In this document: positions 6,218 through 14,722 of the stretch, piece by piece | How positions within the stretch are numbered: position 1 is the first letter of the stretch | How the letters are laid out: each line of letters begins with the position of its first letter | Source of the DNA: Bacteroidia bacterium | GTDB taxonomy: Bacteria; Bacteroidota; Bacteroidia; UKL13-3 | Direction: 5' to 3' | Length of the DNA stretch: 64,000 nucleotides | Assembly (NCBI GenBank): GCA_025454975.1 | Contig: JALONK010000007.1 | Span: 1 to 64,000, forward strand | Position numbers and translations under genes: made by a program | The notes under the pieces: model-generated | What the model was told of the DNA's origin: nothing | The model's input: the letters and a program-made list of their open reading frames with translations, nothing else | Databases searched by the model: none

Positions 6218-6263
6218 GAAACTTTTGTTTCATTGGAAACTTTTAGCATAAAAAAAGTTTCCA
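6218..6263 (+). promoter_or_regulatory. Probable TetR operator: nested inverted repeats before the efflux operon
   Basis: A perfect 11-bp inverted repeat, TGGAAACTTTT (6234-6244) and its complement (6253-6263), is separated by 8 bases. Just upstream is a smaller palindrome GAAAC-TTTT-GTTTC (6218-6231), so GAAACTTTT occurs twice as a direct repeat 18 bases apart. The right arm lies where the -33 element of the downstream promoter is expected. This is the arrangement expected of an autoregulated TetR-family repressor; binding is inferred. Confidence 0.65.
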
Positions 6264-6280
6264 TTTTAAATATTCGCACC

Positions 6281-6288
6281 TACCTTTG
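6281..6288 (+). promoter_or_regulatory. Promoter -7 box of the efflux operon
   Basis: TACCTTTG is an exact match to the Bacteroidota sigma -7 consensus TAnnTTTG. It lies 19 bases before the ATG of the TetR gene, giving a very short leader. The expected -33 position falls inside the right arm of the inverted repeat, so a bound repressor would cover the promoter. Confidence 0.6.
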
Positions 6289-6307
6289 GAGCCGAAATAA
6301 ATAATCA

Positions 6308-6925
6308 ATGAGTGAAGTAAAAGATAAAATACTGGTTGAAGCAGAAACACTTTTTATGAGGTATGGCTTTAAATCAATCACCATGGATGATGTTTCTCGT
6401 GAGCTTGGAATCTCAAAGAAAACCTTATATCAGTTTTTTGCAGATAAAAACGACTTGGTTAATCAATGCGTAGATCACCATCTTGATTCAATGCAAAACA
6501 TTTGCAATCACATTATGAATAACAAAGAGAATGATGCCATTGATATGATGATATTAATTGCCGATTCGATGAAAGACATCATGAGACAAATGAATCCAAG
6601 CAGCATGTTCGATTTGAAAAAATATTTTAAACCGGCATGGGATAAGTTGGAAGAAGAAAGAAAAGGATTCATCAGAAATAGTGTAAAACAAAATTTGGAG
6701 TTGGGAATCAAAAAAGGCATTTATAGAAAAGATTTAGATATTGATGTAATATCTCGCATCTATTCTTTTTTAATTGGCTACATCATCAACCCTGATTATT
6801 ATGATACAGCGGAAATGGACATGCGGTCATTACAGGTAGAAATCATAAAGTATCATTTGCGAAGCATTTGCAGCCCTAAAGGATACGAATTACTTGAAGA
6901 AAAAATAAAAGGATTTAAAAAATAA
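6308..6925 (+). CDS. TetR/AcrR-family transcriptional regulator
   Basis: This 205-residue protein has a TetR-type DNA-binding domain in its first 50 residues: helix 1 ILVEAETLFMRYGFKSITMDDVSRELGISKKTLYQFFADKNDLV matches the family signature with the turn at ELGISKKTLYQFF. The remaining 150 residues are the variable ligand-binding and dimer region. It is the first gene of a four-gene efflux operon (16-bp gap to the TolC-like gene), so it probably represses the operon and is relieved by an unknown pump substrate or membrane stress. Confidence 0.9.
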   Translation: MSEVKDKILVEAETLFMRYGFKSITMDDVSRELGISKKTLYQFFADKNDLVNQCVDHHLDSMQNICNHIMNNKENDAIDMMILIADSMKDIMRQMNPSSMFDLKKYFKPAWDKLEEERKGFIRNSVKQNLELGIKKGIYRKDLDIDVISRIYSFLIGYIINPDYYDTAEMDMRSLQVEIIKYHLRSICSPKGYELLEEKIKGFKK

Positions 6926-6941
6926 GTAGAAACCAATAATT

Positions 6942-8285
6942 ATGAAACAACTCTTAACAATTACGGCACTTATGCTGTTGGTGTTACAAGTAAATGCACA
7001 GGTGAAAAAGTTTTCACTTCAGGAAGCTGTTGCATTTGCAAAAGCAAACAACACAACTTTAAAGAACAACAAATTAGAAGTTTTAAGTGCAAGAAAAAAG
7101 GTAATGGAAGTAGCATCCGGTATTATTCCAAATATCTCTGCCGAAGGTTCTTATCTCCACAACCTCCAAATTCCTACACAGCGTTTACCAAACTTTATTA
7201 ACAACGCACTTCCTCCTGAATCGCCCAGAGGTCCTGAATTTATTGATGCACAATTTGGTGTACCTTTTTCAGTTGCGGGAAAAGTTACTGCTTCGCAACT
7301 GTTGTTTGATGGTGGCTTTTTTATGGGGTTAAAAGCATCTCAAGAGTTCGTGCAATTGTCGCAAATAAACTTAGAACGCAACGAAGTACAAACAACAATT
7401 GATGTTAGTCGTGCCTACTACCTAGTATTACTTGCCCAAACAAATATCAATTTGTTATCATCAAATCTTACCCAACTCGAAAAAACACAATTCGATCTCG
7501 AGCAACTCGCTAAGAATGGATTGTTAGATAAAATTGAATCGGACCGAATAAACTTACAAACAAGTAATCTAAAACTACAACTTGCTAAGTTAAAAGACCA
7601 AGAAAAGGTAGCGTTGATGTTACTTAAATTACAAATGGGGATGAATGTTAACGAACCTATTGAATTGAGCGACGACTTAGAAACACTATTTAAAAATAAA
7701 CAGGTTAAAAGCAAAGAATCAACCTTAGATATGAAAAATAGGGTAGAGTATCGCCTGCTTCTCCAACAAGAAAAATTGTATACACTCAGTAAAAAAAGAT
7801 ATCAGTATGGTTATGCTCCTTCATTAGTTGGTTTTATTACGCATCAACAAAATACGTTTGGTCAAAAGTTGGGAGATATTGGGGATCTATGGTTTCCGGG
7901 TACCTTTTATGGAGTAACATTAAATGTTCCAATATTTGATGGTTTACGCAAACGCGCCCAAATACAGCAAGAAGATATCAACCTGAAGATTACCCGAAAC
8001 AATATCGAAAATTTAGAGCGTGTGATTAATGTAGAAGTTAATAGTGCTCAGTTTAATTATACACGAACATCAGAGCAATTAGATATCCAAAAGAAAAACT
8101 TAGAATTAGCTCAGGAGATTTTTAACAGGGTTCAACTTAAATACAATAATGGATTAGCCAGCACACTTGAACTCACCGTATCACAAACCGATTTAGAAAC
8201 GGCAAGAACAAATTATATCACTGCGGTGTACGACTTTTTTATCGCAGAAATGGATTATCAAAAAGCATTAGGAAACATTAAATAA
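6942..8285 (+). CDS. TolC-family outer-membrane efflux channel
   Basis: This 447-residue protein has a signal peptide ending near residue 20 (LQVNAQ) and the two-fold repeated helical outer-membrane efflux protein architecture. Each half shows long amphipathic helices, such as QEAVAFAKANNTTLKNNKLEV near the N-terminus and ARTNYITAVYDFFIAEMDYQKALG at the C-terminus. The latter closely resembles the usual last-helix signature of the family. TolC trimers form the outer-membrane exit duct for RND pumps. It is followed by the adaptor (25-bp gap) and pump genes, completing a tripartite system. Confidence 0.93.
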   Translation: MKQLLTITALMLLVLQVNAQVKKFSLQEAVAFAKANNTTLKNNKLEVLSARKKVMEVASGIIPNISAEGSYLHNLQIPTQRLPNFINNALPPESPRGPEFIDAQFGVPFSVAGKVTASQLLFDGGFFMGLKASQEFVQLSQINLERNEVQTTIDVSRAYYLVLLAQTNINLLSSNLTQLEKTQFDLEQLAKNGLLDKIESDRINLQTSNLKLQLAKLKDQEKVALMLLKLQMGMNVNEPIELSDDLETLFKNKQVKSKESTLDMKNRVEYRLLLQQEKLYTLSKKRYQYGYAPSLVGFITHQQNTFGQKLGDIGDLWFPGTFYGVTLNVPIFDGLRKRAQIQQEDINLKITRNNIENLERVINVEVNSAQFNYTRTSEQLDIQKKNLELAQEIFNRVQLKYNNGLASTLELTVSQTDLETARTNYITAVYDFFIAEMDYQKALGNIK

Positions 8286-8310
8286 AAAATTAAGCATTAC
8301 AACAAATCAT

Positions 8311-9444
8311 ATGAAAAAGATAATTTTAATCGTTACAGCGCTATCATTATTAGCATTCATTTCCTGCGGTGATAAAAACTCGCTTGAAGCAAAGAAAGCT
8401 GAACTCGAAACTTTAAAAGCTGAACAAGCTTCATTAGCCTCCAAAATTTCTGAATTGCAAGCGCAAATAGAAGCTGCCGGCGATAGTAATACCACAGAAA
8501 ACAATCGCTCTAAATTTGTTAGCGTTAACGACGTTACTAAACAAGCATTCGAGCATGCAATTATTACTCAAGGAAAGATTGATGGTGATGAAAATATAAC
8601 CTATACATCTAAAGTTCCCGGTCAAATTACGGTTGTTCGTGTAAAATCCGGCGACCGCGTTAAGGCAGGTCAAGTACTTGCGGAAATTGATAACAACATG
8701 GTTCGTCAAAATTTAGAAGCACTTAAAAAGCAATATGAGTTGGTGAATATTTTATTTGAAAAACGTAAAGCACTTTGGGATCAAAAAGTAGGAAGTGAAA
8801 TTGAATACCTTCAAGCAAAAAACCAAAAAGAAACCCTTGAAAAACAAATTGCTGCTTCAAAAGAAGGCTTGGATATGTATTTTATTAAGGCGGATTTTGC
8901 AGGTGTTGTTGATGTAGTTTCTATCAAGGCCGGACAACTTATAAATCCGGGTGTTCCGGCAATTACAATTATCAATCCTGCTGCACTAAAAATTAAAGCC
9001 GAACTTTCTGAGTCATATTTATCTCGTTTGAAAACTGGTAATAAAGTTATGATTTATTATCCCGACCTAAATGAATCTGCTGTTGCAACTGTATCACATA
9101 TCTCAAGAACGATTGACCCAATGACTCGAACCTTTAAAGTGGAAATAAATCTGCCATCTAATCCTAATTTAAATCCGAATATGGTTGCAGAACTCCGTAT
9201 AGTTGATTACAATAATCCTCAAACCATTGTTGTGCCGGTAAACACTATTCAATACTTGGATAATGAGCAAGTAGTATTTATTGCAGTAGATAATGGTAAA
9301 GAAAAAATTGCCCGAAAAGTTGTTGTTAAATCAGGTGATTCTTATGATAATAAAACAGAAATCATATCAGGCTTAAAAGTTGGTGATAAACTTATAACTA
9401 CCGGTTATCAAGATTTGGTAGATGGACAATCAATTAAATTTTAA
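8311..9444 (+). CDS. RND efflux periplasmic adaptor (lipoprotein, HlyD/MFP family)
   Basis: This 377-residue membrane-fusion protein has a lipoprotein signal with the lipobox LLAFISC, giving a modified Cys at residue 19. Next come a short coiled-coil segment (KKAELETLKAEQASLASKISELQAQ), a biotinyl-lipoyl-like half motif (VPGQITVVRVKSGDRVKAGQVLAEID), a helical hairpin, the second lipoyl half (KADFAGVVDVVSIKAGQLINPG) and a beta-barrel domain ending in GLKVGDKLITTGYQDLVDGQSI. It bridges the pump and the TolC-like channel encoded on either side. The extra coiled coil before the first lipoyl half is a little unusual. Confidence 0.93.
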   Translation: MKKIILIVTALSLLAFISCGDKNSLEAKKAELETLKAEQASLASKISELQAQIEAAGDSNTTENNRSKFVSVNDVTKQAFEHAIITQGKIDGDENITYTSKVPGQITVVRVKSGDRVKAGQVLAEIDNNMVRQNLEALKKQYELVNILFEKRKALWDQKVGSEIEYLQAKNQKETLEKQIAASKEGLDMYFIKADFAGVVDVVSIKAGQLINPGVPAITIINPAALKIKAELSESYLSRLKTGNKVMIYYPDLNESAVATVSHISRTIDPMTRTFKVEINLPSNPNLNPNMVAELRIVDYNNPQTIVVPVNTIQYLDNEQVVFIAVDNGKEKIARKVVVKSGDSYDNKTEIISGLKVGDKLITTGYQDLVDGQSIKF

Positions 9445-9476
9445 CTCATCTCAAGGTTTATAATAATTCAATTCTT

Positions 9477-12400
9477 ATGCACGATACAATAAAAGAATTT
9501 AAGCCCTCAAGTTGGAGTATAGATAATCGAACCAGTGTATATATACTAACCATCATTATATCATTGGCAGGTTTATTATCATACAACAGCTTACCTAAGG
9601 AACAATTTCCTGAGGTGAAGTTTCCTAGTATACTCGTTACAACTATATATCCCGGAACCTCTCCGAATGATATGGAACAATTGGTAACTAAACAAATCGA
9701 AAAACAACTGAGTACACTTACCGGTGTTAAAAAAATAAAAAGTAATTCGGTACAGGATTTCTCTGTTATCAATGTTGAATTTAACACCGATCAGGATGTT
9801 GATTTAAGCTTACAACGCGTAAAAGATGCAGTGTCTAAATCAAAGAATGATTTGCCGAATAATTTACCTTCCGATCCTCAAGTAACAGATATTGATGCGT
9901 CTCAATTTCCCATCATGCAAGTACATATCAGCGGTGATTTACCATTGGATAAAATGAAAAAGTATGCTGATAAATTACAAGATGAAATTGAAGGGTTGAA
10001 AGAAATTACCCGTGCAGATATGGCCGGCGCTTTGGAACGTGAAATTCAAATAAATGTAGATTTATACAAAGCTGAAATTGCCCATGTTACCTTAGATGAT
10101 ATTGAAGCTGCTGTGATATATGAAAATTTAACTATATCCGGCGGACTAATAGATATGGACGGATTAAAACGTTCAATCAGTGTTAAAGGTCAGTATAAAG
10201 ATCCTAAGTTAATCGGTGATATTGTTATTAAAGGTCAAACCGGTGCAGTAGTATATTTAAAAGATATAGCCGAAATAAAAGATGATTTTAAGGAGAAGGA
10301 AAGTTATGCCCGTCTTGAACACAAAAATGTTATCAGCTTAAATGTTATCAAGAAAAGCGGCGAAAACCTTATTGAAGCCGCAGATAAAATTAAGGATATT
10401 GCTAAACGCTACGAAACAGAAGTATTTCCACCCGGTTTAAAAGTAACCATTACCGGCGACCAATCGGAAGAAACCAGAACTACTTTGCACGATTTAATCA
10501 ATACTATTATTATCGGATTTGTTTTAGTAACGGTAATCCTAATGTTTTTTATGGGTACAACTAATGCCATATTCGTGGCGATGTCAGTACCTTTATCTTG
10601 TGCTGTTGCATTTATTGTTTTTCCTGCCATAGGTTTTAAACTTAACTTCATTGTATTGTTCTCTTTTCTTTTAGCTCTCGGGATTGTTGTGGATGATGCT
10701 ATTGTGGTTATTGAAAATACACATCGTATTTTCGCTAATGGTAAAATGCCAATCAAACAAGCTGCTAAATTAGCAGCAGGCGAAGTATTTTTACCTGTAC
10801 TATCGGGTACTATGACAACCTTGGCACCATTTATTCCACTTGCATTTTGGCAAGGTATAATTGGTAAGTTTATGTTCTTTTTACCTGTTACACTTATTGT
10901 AACCTTATTAGCTTCGTTATTTGTTGCTTATATTATTAATCCTGTGTTTGCGGTTGATTTTATGAAAACACATGAAGAGGAGGAAAAAGAACGCAAGAAT
11001 ACTCGCTCTTATAAACGAACAGGAATAATATTTGGTGCAGTAGCAGTGTTATCTTATGTATCAGGATTCTTTGGCTTTGGTAACTTTGTGATGGTATTAT
11101 TCGGTTTGTATTCATTAAATCGTTTTGTGTTTTGGAAATGGATTCAAGCTTTCCAAAATAAACAATGGCCGGCTGTTCAAGACTTATATAAGAATGTTGT
11201 TACTTGGTCATTAGAAAAAAGTCGCCCTATTTGGCTATTGGTTGGTACATTCTTATTGTTTGTGTTTTCGATAGTTCTTACTGGAATCGTTAAACCTAAT
11301 GTAGTTTTCTTCCCTCAGTCCGATCCAAACTTTGTTTATACTTATATCACTTTGCCTATCGGTACTTCTGCTGAATATACCGATAGTATCACACAGATTG
11401 TGGAAGAACGAGTTTATAAGGTGGTTGGTGACAAAAATCCAATTGTTGAGTCGGTAATATCAAATGTTGCAGTAGGTGCTAATGATCCTTCTCAATTTGA
11501 ATATAATTTTAGTGCTACCTCTCACCTGGGAAAAGTAACCGTTGCCTTTGTTGAATTTGCAAAAAGAAATGGTGAATCAACACGTAAATATCTTGATTTA
11601 ATAAGAGAAGCTACAAAAGGTATCCCGGGTGCCGAAATTATTGTTCAACAAGAATCTAATGGACCACCAACTGGTAAACCTATTGCGGTTGAAATTAAAG
11701 GCGACGATATTGAAGAACTTACAAAAGTTGGTGCAGACGTAAAAAGATTTTTAGATTCATTAAATATTCCCGGAGTTGAAGAACTAAAATCTGATGTGCA
11801 AAGTAATAAACCTGAACTTGTGGTTGAAGTAAACCGCGAACGAGCCAATCGCGAAGGTATTAGTACCGGAATGATTGGAGGTGCTTTACGTAAAGCAATA
11901 TTTGGTGCCGATAAACCTTCTAAACTAAAAGATGCTAATGACGAATACCCAATTCAGGTTCGTTACCAAAAGGAGCAACGTAATAATTTGGAAGCTTTAA
12001 TGAACTTAAAAATTACTTTCCGTGATATGAACATGGGTGGGATGGTAAGACAAATTCCTTTATCCTCGGTGGCAACTGTTAAATATAATAATACCTACGG
12101 TGGTATCAAACGTTTAGATGAAAAACCAATTATTACTTTATCATCTAATGTGTTGTCGGGCTTTAATGGAAACGAAATTGTTGCACGTATCGAAAAAGAA
12201 TTAAAGAATTACTCGCTACCAACAGGTGTTAGTATTGGAATGGGAGGCGAGCAACAAGAACAGGCTGAAACAGGAGCATTCTTAGGCTCTGCTATGATGG
12301 TAGCTCTAGGTTTGATCTTTTTAATTTTAGTTACTCAATTTAATTCATTATCTAAACCAATTATTATCTTAAGCGAAATTGTACTGAGTTTAATCGGTGT

Positions 12401-12851
12401 ATTATTAGGTTTCAGTATCTTTAATATGGAAATTTCAGTTGTAATGACCGGCGTTGGTATTGTTGCATTAGCAGGTATTGTGGTGCGTAATGGTATATTA
12501 TTGGTTGAGTTTACTGAAATTTTATTAAAGCAAGGTATGCCTTTGAAAGAAGCAATTATCGAAGCAGGAAGAACGCGTATGACTCCTGTATTATTAACTG
12601 CAACAGCTACTATTTTAGGATTGGTTCCTTTGGCAGTAGGATTAAATATAGATTTCGCCAAATTGTTTCAGGAAGGTAATCCTCATATTTTCTTCGGAGG
12701 TGATAGTGTAGCTTTTTGGGGGCCATTATCTTGGACAATGATATTTGGTTTAGGCTTCGCAACCTTCTTAACTTTAATACTTGTTCCGGTAATGTTGTAC
12801 CTTACTGAAAGACTAAAGTTTAAGTTAGGTTTTAAAAATGCCCATCAATAA
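9477..12851 (+). CDS. RND-family efflux pump, inner-membrane permease
   Basis: This 1124-residue AcrB/HAE1-like transporter exports substrates by proton antiport. The membrane helix 4 motif GIVVDDAIVVIENTHR carries the adjacent aspartates of the proton relay. The N-terminus (TSVYILTIIISLAGLLSYNSLPKEQFPEV) and the C-terminal VGIVALAGIVVRNGILLVEF are typical. It is about 80 residues longer than AcrB, partly because the central loop (about 500-575) has a charged stretch and two extra hydrophobic segments, as in several Bacteroidota pumps. It lies 32 bases after the adaptor gene. Substrate cannot be read from sequence; drugs or organic compounds are more likely than metals, since no metal-binding methionine cluster was noticed. 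Confidence 0.94.
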   Translation: MHDTIKEFKPSSWSIDNRTSVYILTIIISLAGLLSYNSLPKEQFPEVKFPSILVTTIYPGTSPNDMEQLVTKQIEKQLSTLTGVKKIKSNSVQDFSVINVEFNTDQDVDLSLQRVKDAVSKSKNDLPNNLPSDPQVTDIDASQFPIMQVHISGDLPLDKMKKYADKLQDEIEGLKEITRADMAGALEREIQINVDLYKAEIAHVTLDDIEAAVIYENLTISGGLIDMDGLKRSISVKGQYKDPKLIGDIVIKGQTGAVVYLKDIAEIKDDFKEKESYARLEHKNVISLNVIKKSGENLIEAADKIKDIAKRYETEVFPPGLKVTITGDQSEETRTTLHDLINTIIIGFVLVTVILMFFMGTTNAIFVAMSVPLSCAVAFIVFPAIGFKLNFIVLFSFLLALGIVVDDAIVVIENTHRIFANGKMPIKQAAKLAAGEVFLPVLSGTMTTLAPFIPLAFWQGIIGKFMFFLPVTLIVTLLASLFVAYIINPVFAVDFMKTHEEEEKERKNTRSYKRTGIIFGAVAVLSYVSGFFGFGNFVMVLFGLYSLNRFVFWKWIQAFQNKQWPAVQDLYKNVVTWSLEKSRPIWLLVGTFLLFVFSIVLTGIVKPNVVFFPQSDPNFVYTYITLPIGTSAEYTDSITQIVEERVYKVVGDKNPIVESVISNVAVGANDPSQFEYNFSATSHLGKVTVAFVEFAKRNGESTRKYLDLIREATKGIPGAEIIVQQESNGPPTGKPIAVEIKGDDIEELTKVGADVKRFLDSLNIPGVEELKSDVQSNKPELVVEVNRERANREGISTGMIGGALRKAIFGADKPSKLKDANDEYPIQVRYQKEQRNNLEALMNLKITFRDMNMGGMVRQIPLSSVATVKYNNTYGGIKRLDEKPIITLSSNVLSGFNGNEIVARIEKELKNYSLPTGVSIGMGGEQQEQAETGAFLGSAMMVALGLIFLILVTQFNSLSKPIIILSEIVLSLIGVLLGFSIFNMEISVVMTGVGIVALAGIVVRNGILLVEFTEILLKQGMPLKEAIIEAGRTRMTPVLLTATATILGLVPLAVGLNIDFAKLFQEGNPHIFFGGDSVAFWGPLSWTMIFGLGFATFLTLILVPVMLYLTERLKFKLGFKNAHQ

Positions 12852-12912
12852 ATTAGTTGAAAAAGCTTTGTAAAAAATAAAGTGGAAACTTGTATCAACA
12901 ATAAAAATAAAT

Positions 12913-12920
12913 TACCTTTG
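12913..12920 (+). promoter_or_regulatory. Promoter -7 box of the candidate small RNA
   Basis: TACCTTTG is an exact TAnnTTTG match, with a TTG at 12890-12892 placed 20 bases upstream as a possible -33 element. No gene starts within 200 bases; the next landmark downstream is a terminator. Confidence 0.55.
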
Positions 12921-12923
12921 TTT

Positions 12924-13050
12924 ACAGCATTTCACAGGATTATTGAAGGTGCTTTAACAAAGAAAAAATAAAGATATTGCATCCTTGAGTAGAGGTGCAA
13001 TTGTTTCATAGGCTAGGGTGGAGCCCCCAATAAGGGGGCTTCGCTTTTTT
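12924..13050 (+). ncRNA. Candidate small RNA with its own promoter and terminator
   Basis: Between the pump and the protease lies a unit of roughly 120 bases with a consensus promoter at its head and an intrinsic terminator at its end. It contains two hairpins: 12926-12953 (AGCA and TTCA pairing with TGAA and TGCT around a 9-nt loop) and 12976-13001 (ATTGCA/TGCAAT plus CCT/AGG, one bulged T, loop TGAGTAG), then the terminator. No open frame of useful length is present. The start is estimated from the -7 box. No known family could be assigned; a 6S-like or trans-acting RNA are both possible. Confidence 0.5.
13022..13050 (+). terminator. Rho-independent terminator of the sRNA unit / efflux operon
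   Basis: The stem AGCCCCC ... GGGGGCT (13022-13040) has a short AATAA loop. It is followed by TCGC and a run of six T. Confidence 0.85.
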
Positions 13051-13141: not shown

Positions 13142-14722
13142 ATGAAAAAATTATTATTAAAAGTAAGTTTCTTATCTCTTACTTCACTTGCATTTGCACA
13201 AAATCAAGCACCTGAAAACTGGTTTAATTTAGACTATAGTACAAATAAAGTTCACGGCGTAAGCACCGAAAGAACTTATGCTGAATTGTTAAAAGGCAAA
13301 ACTTCGAAAACCATTGTAGTAGCCGTTATTGATGGTGGTACTGAAGTGAAACATGAAGATTTAAAAGATGTAATTTGGGTTAATCCAAATGAAATTCCCG
13401 GTAACGGAATTGATGATGATAAAAACGGTTATGTAGATGATATCAATGGTTGGAACTTTATAGGTGGTGCCGAAAAAGATGTTGCAGAGGATAACCTTGA
13501 AGTAACTAGATTATACACTAAACTACATGCAAAATATGGTAGTATAGATACTTTATTGCTTGATGGCGAAGAAAAAGTAAATTATGAATTTTATAAAAAG
13601 GTTAAAGAATCATACACAAAATCTTTTACTCAATACGAATCCATAAATAATATTTATAAATCACTTATCAGTGGTATAAAGTCTCTACGCAATGGTATTG
13701 GTAAAGATGATGTAACTATAGGAGATCTAAAGTCGCACCGAGTTGCCAATAAAAATGAAGTAATTGCAGCTAATGCGCTAATTAATGTAATGAAGAACAA
13801 ATCTGGTACAATCAAACTTAGCAGTATTCAAAAAGAAATTGAAGAGTCAGGTTCACAAATAGCTAAGTTTGTTGATTTTCATTACAATACCGAATTTGAT
13901 CCTCGCTCAATTGTTGGTGACGACTATGAAAACGTTAATCAAAGATATTATGGCAATAATAGGGTATATGGACCTCATGGTGATCATGGAACTCACGTTG
14001 CTGGTATTATAGCTGCTATGCGAAATAATCAATTAGGAATGATGGGAGTAGCCGATAATGTAAAAATTATGGTTTTACGTGTTGTGCCTGATGGTGATGA
14101 AAGAGATAAAGATGTTGCTAATGCTATTCGTTATGCTGTAGATAATGGTGCTACAATCATTAATATGAGTTTTGGGAAATCATTTTCTCCTTACAAATCA
14201 GCAGTAGATGAGGCAGTGAAATATGCACAAAGTAAAGATGTTTTATTGGTTCACGCAGCAGGTAACGATAATAAAAATATTGATGTTGAGGATAATTTTC
14301 CTAATGATAAAATGAATGGATATGATGCATCAAATTGGATTGAAGTAGGAGCATCAAGTTGGAAGCCTAAAAAACTTTTAACAGCTGAGTTTAGCAATTA
14401 TGGTAAAGCATCTGTAGATGTATTTGCCCCGGGAGTTGATGTTTATTCTTGTATCCCTGAAAGTAAATATGAATCATTCAATGGTACAAGTATGGCAGCT
14501 CCGGTAACAGCAGGTGTTGCAGCAGTTTTACGCAGTTATTTTCCTCACCTTACTGCTGCTCAGGTAAAAGAAATTATATTAAAATCATCTATTAAAATAA
14601 AAGGTAAAGTACTGATACCCGGTAGTAATAAAAAAGTTAAGCTATCCGAATTGTGTGTAAGTGGCGGAGTCGTTAATCTTTATGAAGCCGTTAAATTGGC
14701 AGCGACCTATCCGGTAAAATAA
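13142..14722 (+). CDS. Secreted subtilisin-like serine protease (S8 family)
   Basis: This 526-residue protein has a Sec signal peptide (cleavage near LAFAQ, residue 20). The S8 catalytic residues are all visible: D64 in VAVIDGGTE, H282 in HGDHGTHVAG, oxyanion N375 in AAGND and S450 in FNGTSMAAP. An insertion of about 170 residues (roughly 105-275), largely helical, separates the catalytic Asp and His, as in a Bacteroidota S8 subgroup. It ends soon after the catalytic domain without a T9SS tail, so a periplasmic location is inferred. The ATG at 13142 is chosen over one 16 codons upstream because it begins the signal peptide. Confidence 0.92.
   Translation: MKKLLLKVSFLSLTSLAFAQNQAPENWFNLDYSTNKVHGVSTERTYAELLKGKTSKTIVVAVIDGGTEVKHEDLKDVIWVNPNEIPGNGIDDDKNGYVDDINGWNFIGGAEKDVAEDNLEVTRLYTKLHAKYGSIDTLLLDGEEKVNYEFYKKVKESYTKSFTQYESINNIYKSLISGIKSLRNGIGKDDVTIGDLKSHRVANKNEVIAANALINVMKNKSGTIKLSSIQKEIEESGSQIAKFVDFHYNTEFDPRSIVGDDYENVNQRYYGNNRVYGPHGDHGTHVAGIIAAMRNNQLGMMGVADNVKIMVLRVVPDGDERDKDVANAIRYAVDNGATIINMSFGKSFSPYKSAVDEAVKYAQSKDVLLVHAAGNDNKNIDVEDNFPNDKMNGYDASNWIEVGASSWKPKKLLTAEFSNYGKASVDVFAPGVDVYSCIPESKYESFNGTSMAAPVTAGVAAVLRSYFPHLTAAQVKEIILKSSIKIKGKVLIPGSNKKVKLSELCVSGGVVNLYEAVKLAATYPVK

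Follow-up and report, generated by a model that had tools for sequence, protein, structure and literature searches.

To our knowledge, few small RNAs (sRNAs) are known in Bacteroidota outside Bacteroides. In enterobacteria and Vibrio, sRNAs of the CpxQ and OppZ type are derived from 3′ untranslated regions (UTRs) behind operons. Translation in Bacteroidota does not rely on Shine-Dalgarno pairing. Within Bacteroides, the sRNAs FopS and GibS repress through a 5′ seed that pairs near start codons, according to the available text of two reports (PMC11697453, PMC7366714). GibS pairs with translation starts (PMC7366714). Features that characterize FopS include binding by the RRM protein RbpB and repression of susC-type mRNAs near the start codon.

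We examined a candidate sRNA unit (12890-13050) in a 64,000-nucleotide stretch of DNA from a freshwater bacterium, analysed as a whole and hereafter called the window; the parts of the unit and the genes of the pump operon lie on its + strand. The window probably belongs to family UKL13-3, order NS11-12g, class Bacteroidia, and a published list of MAGs assigns a genus B1 to NS11-12g; UKL13-3 (PMC11080526). The unit stands next to a tetR-tolC-mfp-rnd drug-efflux operon (6308-12851) in which Pfam matches identify TetR (TetR_N, 6308-6925), an OEP/TolC-like protein (6942-8285), an HlyD-type fusion protein (8311-9444) and the RND pump (ACR_tran, 9477-12851), the last being directly upstream of the unit and its conserved neighbor. 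The gene downstream encodes a subtilase whose start is best placed at 13142. A secreted protein similar to this S8 protease (13142-14722), with a PENWFNL-type motif at its start, occurs at L002 and L010, and in three of the loci read (window, L002 and L010) it is the product of the next gene after the RNA. At the other end of the operon, all 18 loci listed (window 6248-6307 and 17 relatives) have AGTTTCC shortly upstream of a TAnnTTTG-like box that precedes tetR; this motif is probably part of the operator for the pump's TetR regulator.

The unit would be transcribed from a Bacteroidota-type promoter (TTG-N20-TACCTTTG). As the original prediction stated, a TTG (−33 element, 12890-12892) is separated by 20 nt from the −7 element TACCTTTG (12913-12920) and starts 39 nt past the final base of the pump stop codon (12851). 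The predicted transcript of ∼125 nt (12926-13050) takes its start from this promoter and its end from the terminator. The promoter is not of the E. coli type and was not listed by an E. coli-type scan, which missed the terminator as well. The pattern TTG-N17-24-TAnnTTTG occurs upstream of 29 of 62 copies of the unit, compared with 0.9 expected from shuffles. In one genus group the box falls inside the last codons of the pump gene, and such boxes weigh less because coding constraint could equally account for them. For several orphan copies, the box extends right up to the hairpin, so the RNA would begin with the hairpin itself.

The segment 12924-13052 folds with −40.2 kcal/mol, as compared with a mean of −27.96 (sd 3.34) for 200 shuffles, only one of which is equally good (z = −3.66). 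Chance occurrence of a promoter and a terminator is rejected by this z value together with the promoter count. The predicted fold contains the two hairpins and the strong terminator that had been proposed: one hairpin in the 5′ leader (12926-12953), a second one at 12972-13006 (as folded in the window) and an intrinsic terminator (13015-13050) with a 14-pair stem (13015-13028 with 13034-13047) and a T-run (13045-13050). However, the leader hairpin is not conserved, and relatives retain only ∼12971-13050, comprising the second hairpin, a linker and the terminator. The conserved hairpin 1 (12976-13001) pairs ATTGCA (12976-12981) with TGCAAT (12996-13001) and carries the apical part GAGTAGA (12987-12993). 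It is followed by the conserved linker TTGTTTCATAGGCTA (13001-13015), the proposed seed, whose core is TTTCATAGGCTA (13004-13015) and which includes the segment UUUCAUAGG. Short frames are present, such as one of 29 codons that opens with the GTG at 12882, but the stems are rewritten in other copies, which argues against coding.

A DNA search of 97 genomes located 12971-13050 in the genus and the family. Seven of eight other species of the genus match at E≤5.6e-12 and the eighth at 0.034, the long matches beginning at ∼12967-12971. Allowing at most two changes, linker TTGTTTCATAGGCTA is present in 35 copies at 30 loci, some in tandem. A single-pattern search of public genome contigs returned 30 contigs, all titled Bacteroidota and nearly all metagenome-assembled; a single-pattern search of viral contigs revealed no copy. 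At E≤0.1, a covariance model (R1) built from 42 copies has matches in 52 of the 64 genomes of the family, or in 50 without a weak pair (G029 at 0.032 and G041 at 5.9e-4). Among 395 genomes sampled from across the phylum, this model matches five at E≤0.01, including the window's own genome; the matches in the other four (L101-L104) were judged by eye to be chance, none having the linker followed by a terminator. A second model (R2) matches 51 of the 64 genomes at E≤0.01, with one to six copies per matched genome. The order is represented here by these 64 UKL13-3 genomes alone. Three genera (g3, g4 and g12) gave no match in either model search, and two (g13 and g14) gave weak matches only. Three R2 copies are present in the window's own genome (on contigs C76, C66 and C17), a count that is not independent, because all three are among the copies from which R2 was built. 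A second recurrent place (L112, L114, L118 and L122, in two genera) lies between an hsp20-like gene, which ends ∼20 nt before the RNA, and a ribF-like gene, names that we assume from sequence features. Copies at this place have a shortened loop and the linker UUUUCAUAGGUUA.

Both structural elements covary. In a MAFFT alignment of 42 copies (A1), 90.5% of cells are paired and 66 double-change cells are observed versus 22.6 in shuffles. The covariation score of 0.351 exceeds the shuffled mean of 0.198 and is reached by 0 of 500 shuffles, and the structure signal is destroyed when the pairing partners are slid. In a larger alignment (A3), dispersed copies were added and 65 distinct copies fitted to the model, with 3 of 73 matches (E 0.002-0.01) dropped in passing from A2 to A3. 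Here 95.4% of cells pair, double-sided changes occur in 16 of 16 pairs, and the score rises to 0.729 versus 0.224, again reached by 0 of 500 shuffles. The terminator stem is helix 2 of this covarying structure. Thus, the hairpin conservation and covariation in relatives on which the original prediction had staked itself were both found.

The order of elements is conserved: a hairpin with the apical loop RGUAGA, then the near-invariant linker UUUCAUAGGCUA, then the terminator. The linker reads exactly TTTCATAGGCTA (RNA: UUUCAUAGGCUA) in 52 of 65 distinct copies and TTTCATAGGTTA in 8. Dispersed copies (for example L106, L107, L108, L113, L116 and L117) have unrelated stems, with the apical part and linker unchanged; the apical part is CUA-GGGG-UAG-A in most of them and GAGUAGA in the window's genus. 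The typical loop hairpin is absent from one weak copy, L034, and otherwise a conserved covarying hairpin precedes the linker. In predictions trimmed at the T-run for 63 of the 65 copies (L119 and L032, without a T-run, were left out), the linker has an unpaired probability of 0.66 overall and CAUAGG one of 0.65-0.83, while the first Us are unpaired at 0.37-0.53 and frequently predicted to pair with the 5′ side. The overall value is 0.49 when bases beyond the terminator are included in the calculation. L119, which has no terminator, is probably a false copy and is counted among the 65 rows of A3. The unit shows the promoter, intrinsic terminator and conserved structure by which bacterial intergenic sRNAs are generally recognized. 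Judged from the DNA, it is a real, family-wide, multi-copy structured sRNA family with promoter and terminator signals, and the proposed candidate sRNA between the efflux operon and the protease is thus supported by conservation, covariation and these signals.

The best explanation as a whole, which we favor with modest confidence, is a multi-copy trans-acting sRNA with a linker seed and a FopS-like mode. For transcription, processing from the pump mRNA, base pairing, the class of targets and the link to stress, we infer the following course. The RNA would come from its own promoter, from the 3′ end of the pump transcript, or from both, and would act in trans. Hairpin 1 would stabilize the RNA and present the conserved apical loop, while the exposed linker UUUCAUAGGCUA, which is antisense to CCUAUGAAA and could cover an AUGAAA start, would serve as the seed, pairing with target mRNAs at their translation starts so as to block them. 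With copies lying at the 3′ ends of both the pump and the hsp20 mRNAs, efflux or envelope stress and heat stress could be connected to a common set of targets, and an RRM protein of the RbpB type might act as a partner in most family members. Pairing with start codons is preferred because UUUCAUAG, itself antisense to an AUGAAA start, is common to the linker and the 5′ seed region of GibS.

Searches for the corresponding targets revealed no enrichment. In the window's own genome, GYYTATGAAAY has 39 sites versus 40 for a backwards control, and of the 30 sites whose loci were read, just 2 fall at plausible gene starts. Forty sites of the 12-nt complement TARCCTATGAAA, a selection from nine genomes that includes sites common to sister species and two copies of the RNA itself, place 12 at plausible starts versus ∼10 expected, an expectation (1.1 per genome) that is rough, having been derived from no more than 75 ATGAAA starts, with 750 of them assumed per genome. 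Across 62 genomes of the family, TARCCTATGAAA has 102 forward and 112 reverse matches versus ∼120 for the backwards control, with no excess at starts; the surplus is about as large as the number of RNA copies, which themselves match the pattern. Self-targeting of the pump operon was suggested by the TolC-like start AUGAAACAA, which is complementary to nine linker bases in the window, but this candidate was rejected because the relatives listed do not preserve it. None of the operon's four starts has conserved pairing with the linker. Enrichment tests of this kind would miss an sRNA whose targets are few or imperfect.

The lack of enrichment at starts also counts in favor of the main rival, in which the loop RGUAGA and the linker form a site for an RNA-binding protein, such as an RRM protein, and tandem copies titrate that protein. 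Two separate conserved motifs on freely changing stems would suit such a protein-binding or sponge RNA, as would the tandem copies themselves and the fact that 51 of 60 genomes of the family encode an RRM_1 protein (within the genus, seven of the eight further species have one). However, the window's own assembly (98.36% completeness) has no RRM_1 match, reflecting either an assembly gap or a real loss, yet it keeps the RNA. The linker core is also common with a seed region proven to act by base pairing, that of GibS, as given in the available text of its report (PMC7366714). We consider a protein site unlikely.

The genomic neighborhood of the main locus supports the original description of the RNA as pump-linked, in the sense of linkage by position. 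In 31 of 32 main-locus contexts a pump gene precedes the RNA on its strand, the 32nd ending at a contig end, and the pump loci fetched contain rnd, mfp and tolC in 20 of 20 cases and tetR in 18, the other two being cut short. This placement immediately behind the pump gene, the strong terminator and, in one genus group, a hairpin close behind the pump stop codon are what one might expect of a cis-acting 3′ end module of the operon, consisting of a terminator and a stabilizing hairpin with no trans activity. Such a module would have no use for the near-invariant linker and loop, nor is it easily reconciled with the promoters of 29 of 62 copies, with tandem copies that each bear a terminator, or with dispersed copies distant from the pump, and we judge it quite improbable. 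In the window, a leader-like RNA with a terminator before a co-directed gene could also be read as a riboswitch or attenuator that controls this gene. The genes downstream of main-locus copies differ, though, including those for the S8 protease, an ArsC-like protein, ABC-F, an ABC transporter and a response regulator, and 2 of 32 contexts have the downstream gene on the opposite strand. Moreover, covariation supports the terminator helix in its drawn form, and we saw no fold that would compete with it, which leaves a controlling role highly improbable.

A 6S-type RNA, one of the options originally raised, would fit in length (∼125 nt) and in having its own promoter, but is rejected and can practically be set aside, because nothing in Rfam matches at gathering score, the ten weak matches in the region do not include 6S, and the short hairpin, linker and terminator anatomy lacks the long rod with a central bubble that 6S RNAs possess. 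A tRNA or tmRNA was likewise rejected, none being found in the window.

We also searched 295 genomes of the class with TTTCATAGGN{20,50}TTTTTT, which gave an apparent excess in some genomes. In eight of these genomes, most sites lack a terminator hairpin, a repeat occurs in one genus, and a site can contribute several rows (T-run registers). Judged by eye in genomes present in both listings, ∼10 of ∼115 seed sites versus ∼3 of ∼75 sites of a permuted control 9-mer are terminator-like, a comparison that weakly suggests a seed used across the class. In G071, G588 and G613, of one genus, a palindromic repeat of the form TTTCATAGGAGAATTTTAAAATTCTCCTATGAAA occurs at dispersed sites and is unrelated to the sRNA. 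Intergenic units of TTTCATAGG and a terminator are present in other families of the class (L307, L312, L308, L309 and L313); some have a hairpin before the seed, and L307 and L312 are one locus shared by two species.

The trans-acting sRNA proposed above could be one branch of a Bacteroidia-wide, multi-copy class built on a single seed, UUUCAUAG(G), antisense to AUGAAA starts. Such a seed might be favored because Bacteroidota translate without Shine-Dalgarno pairing, and the 3′ ends of stress mRNAs, those for the efflux pump and the small heat shock protein, might have captured the sRNA, giving each stress transcript the same regulator. This broader proposal is speculative, and we think it doubtful. 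The clear anatomy, the covariance model and the fixed link to an efflux operon make the RNA findable and removable in any culturable relative, and the seed core in common with GibS offers a way to test whether sRNAs of Bacteroidota generally aim at AUGAAA starts.

As far as Rfam 15 and the literature searched show, this sRNA family is undescribed. The Rfam comparison originally proposed, which covered 6S-type models, yielded no family at gathering score in the window. Our literature searches revealed no report joining NS11-12g with an sRNA and, among the matches listed, no efflux-linked sRNA of Bacteroidota; a text search for the seed letters gave, among the matches listed, none on bacterial sRNAs by title. 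The top weak Rfam match in the region is GibS (RF04182), with a covariance model score of 26.9 bits (E 0.078 in a short search) against a gathering score of 115, which does not place the RNA in that family. The GibS consensus begins GUGUUUUUCAUAGUAUUAGAU, and the 8 nt UUUCAUAG in its 5′ end also occur in the linker, a match that 0.7% of shuffled linkers reach. The model alignment itself covers the hairpin and terminator here and does not run from seed to seed.

Compared with sRNAs of the CpxQ and OppZ type, the RNA has a similar position right behind the final gene of an envelope operon. Unlike them, it has its own promoter in many copies and no conserved pairing with its own operon; processing that involves Hfq or RNase E is known for those systems. 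FopS, a family of paralogous sRNAs of Bacteroidaceae, offers another parallel in having several copies per genome, Bacteroidota-type promoters and a terminator at the 3′ end, and the available text of its report also describes one 3′ UTR-derived member and an exposed seed that holds the GibS sequence called R1 (PMC11697453). The UUUCAUAG in common with the linker comes from the GibS consensus. The FopS seed is described there as a 5′ single strand (PMC11697453), whereas the putative seed here lies between a covarying hairpin and the terminator, reads UUUCAUAGGCUA, and is accompanied by a conserved apical loop, linkage to an RND pump operon and a different lineage. By the features tested, the family is a member of neither FopS nor GibS, and may resemble FopS in its possible mode of action.
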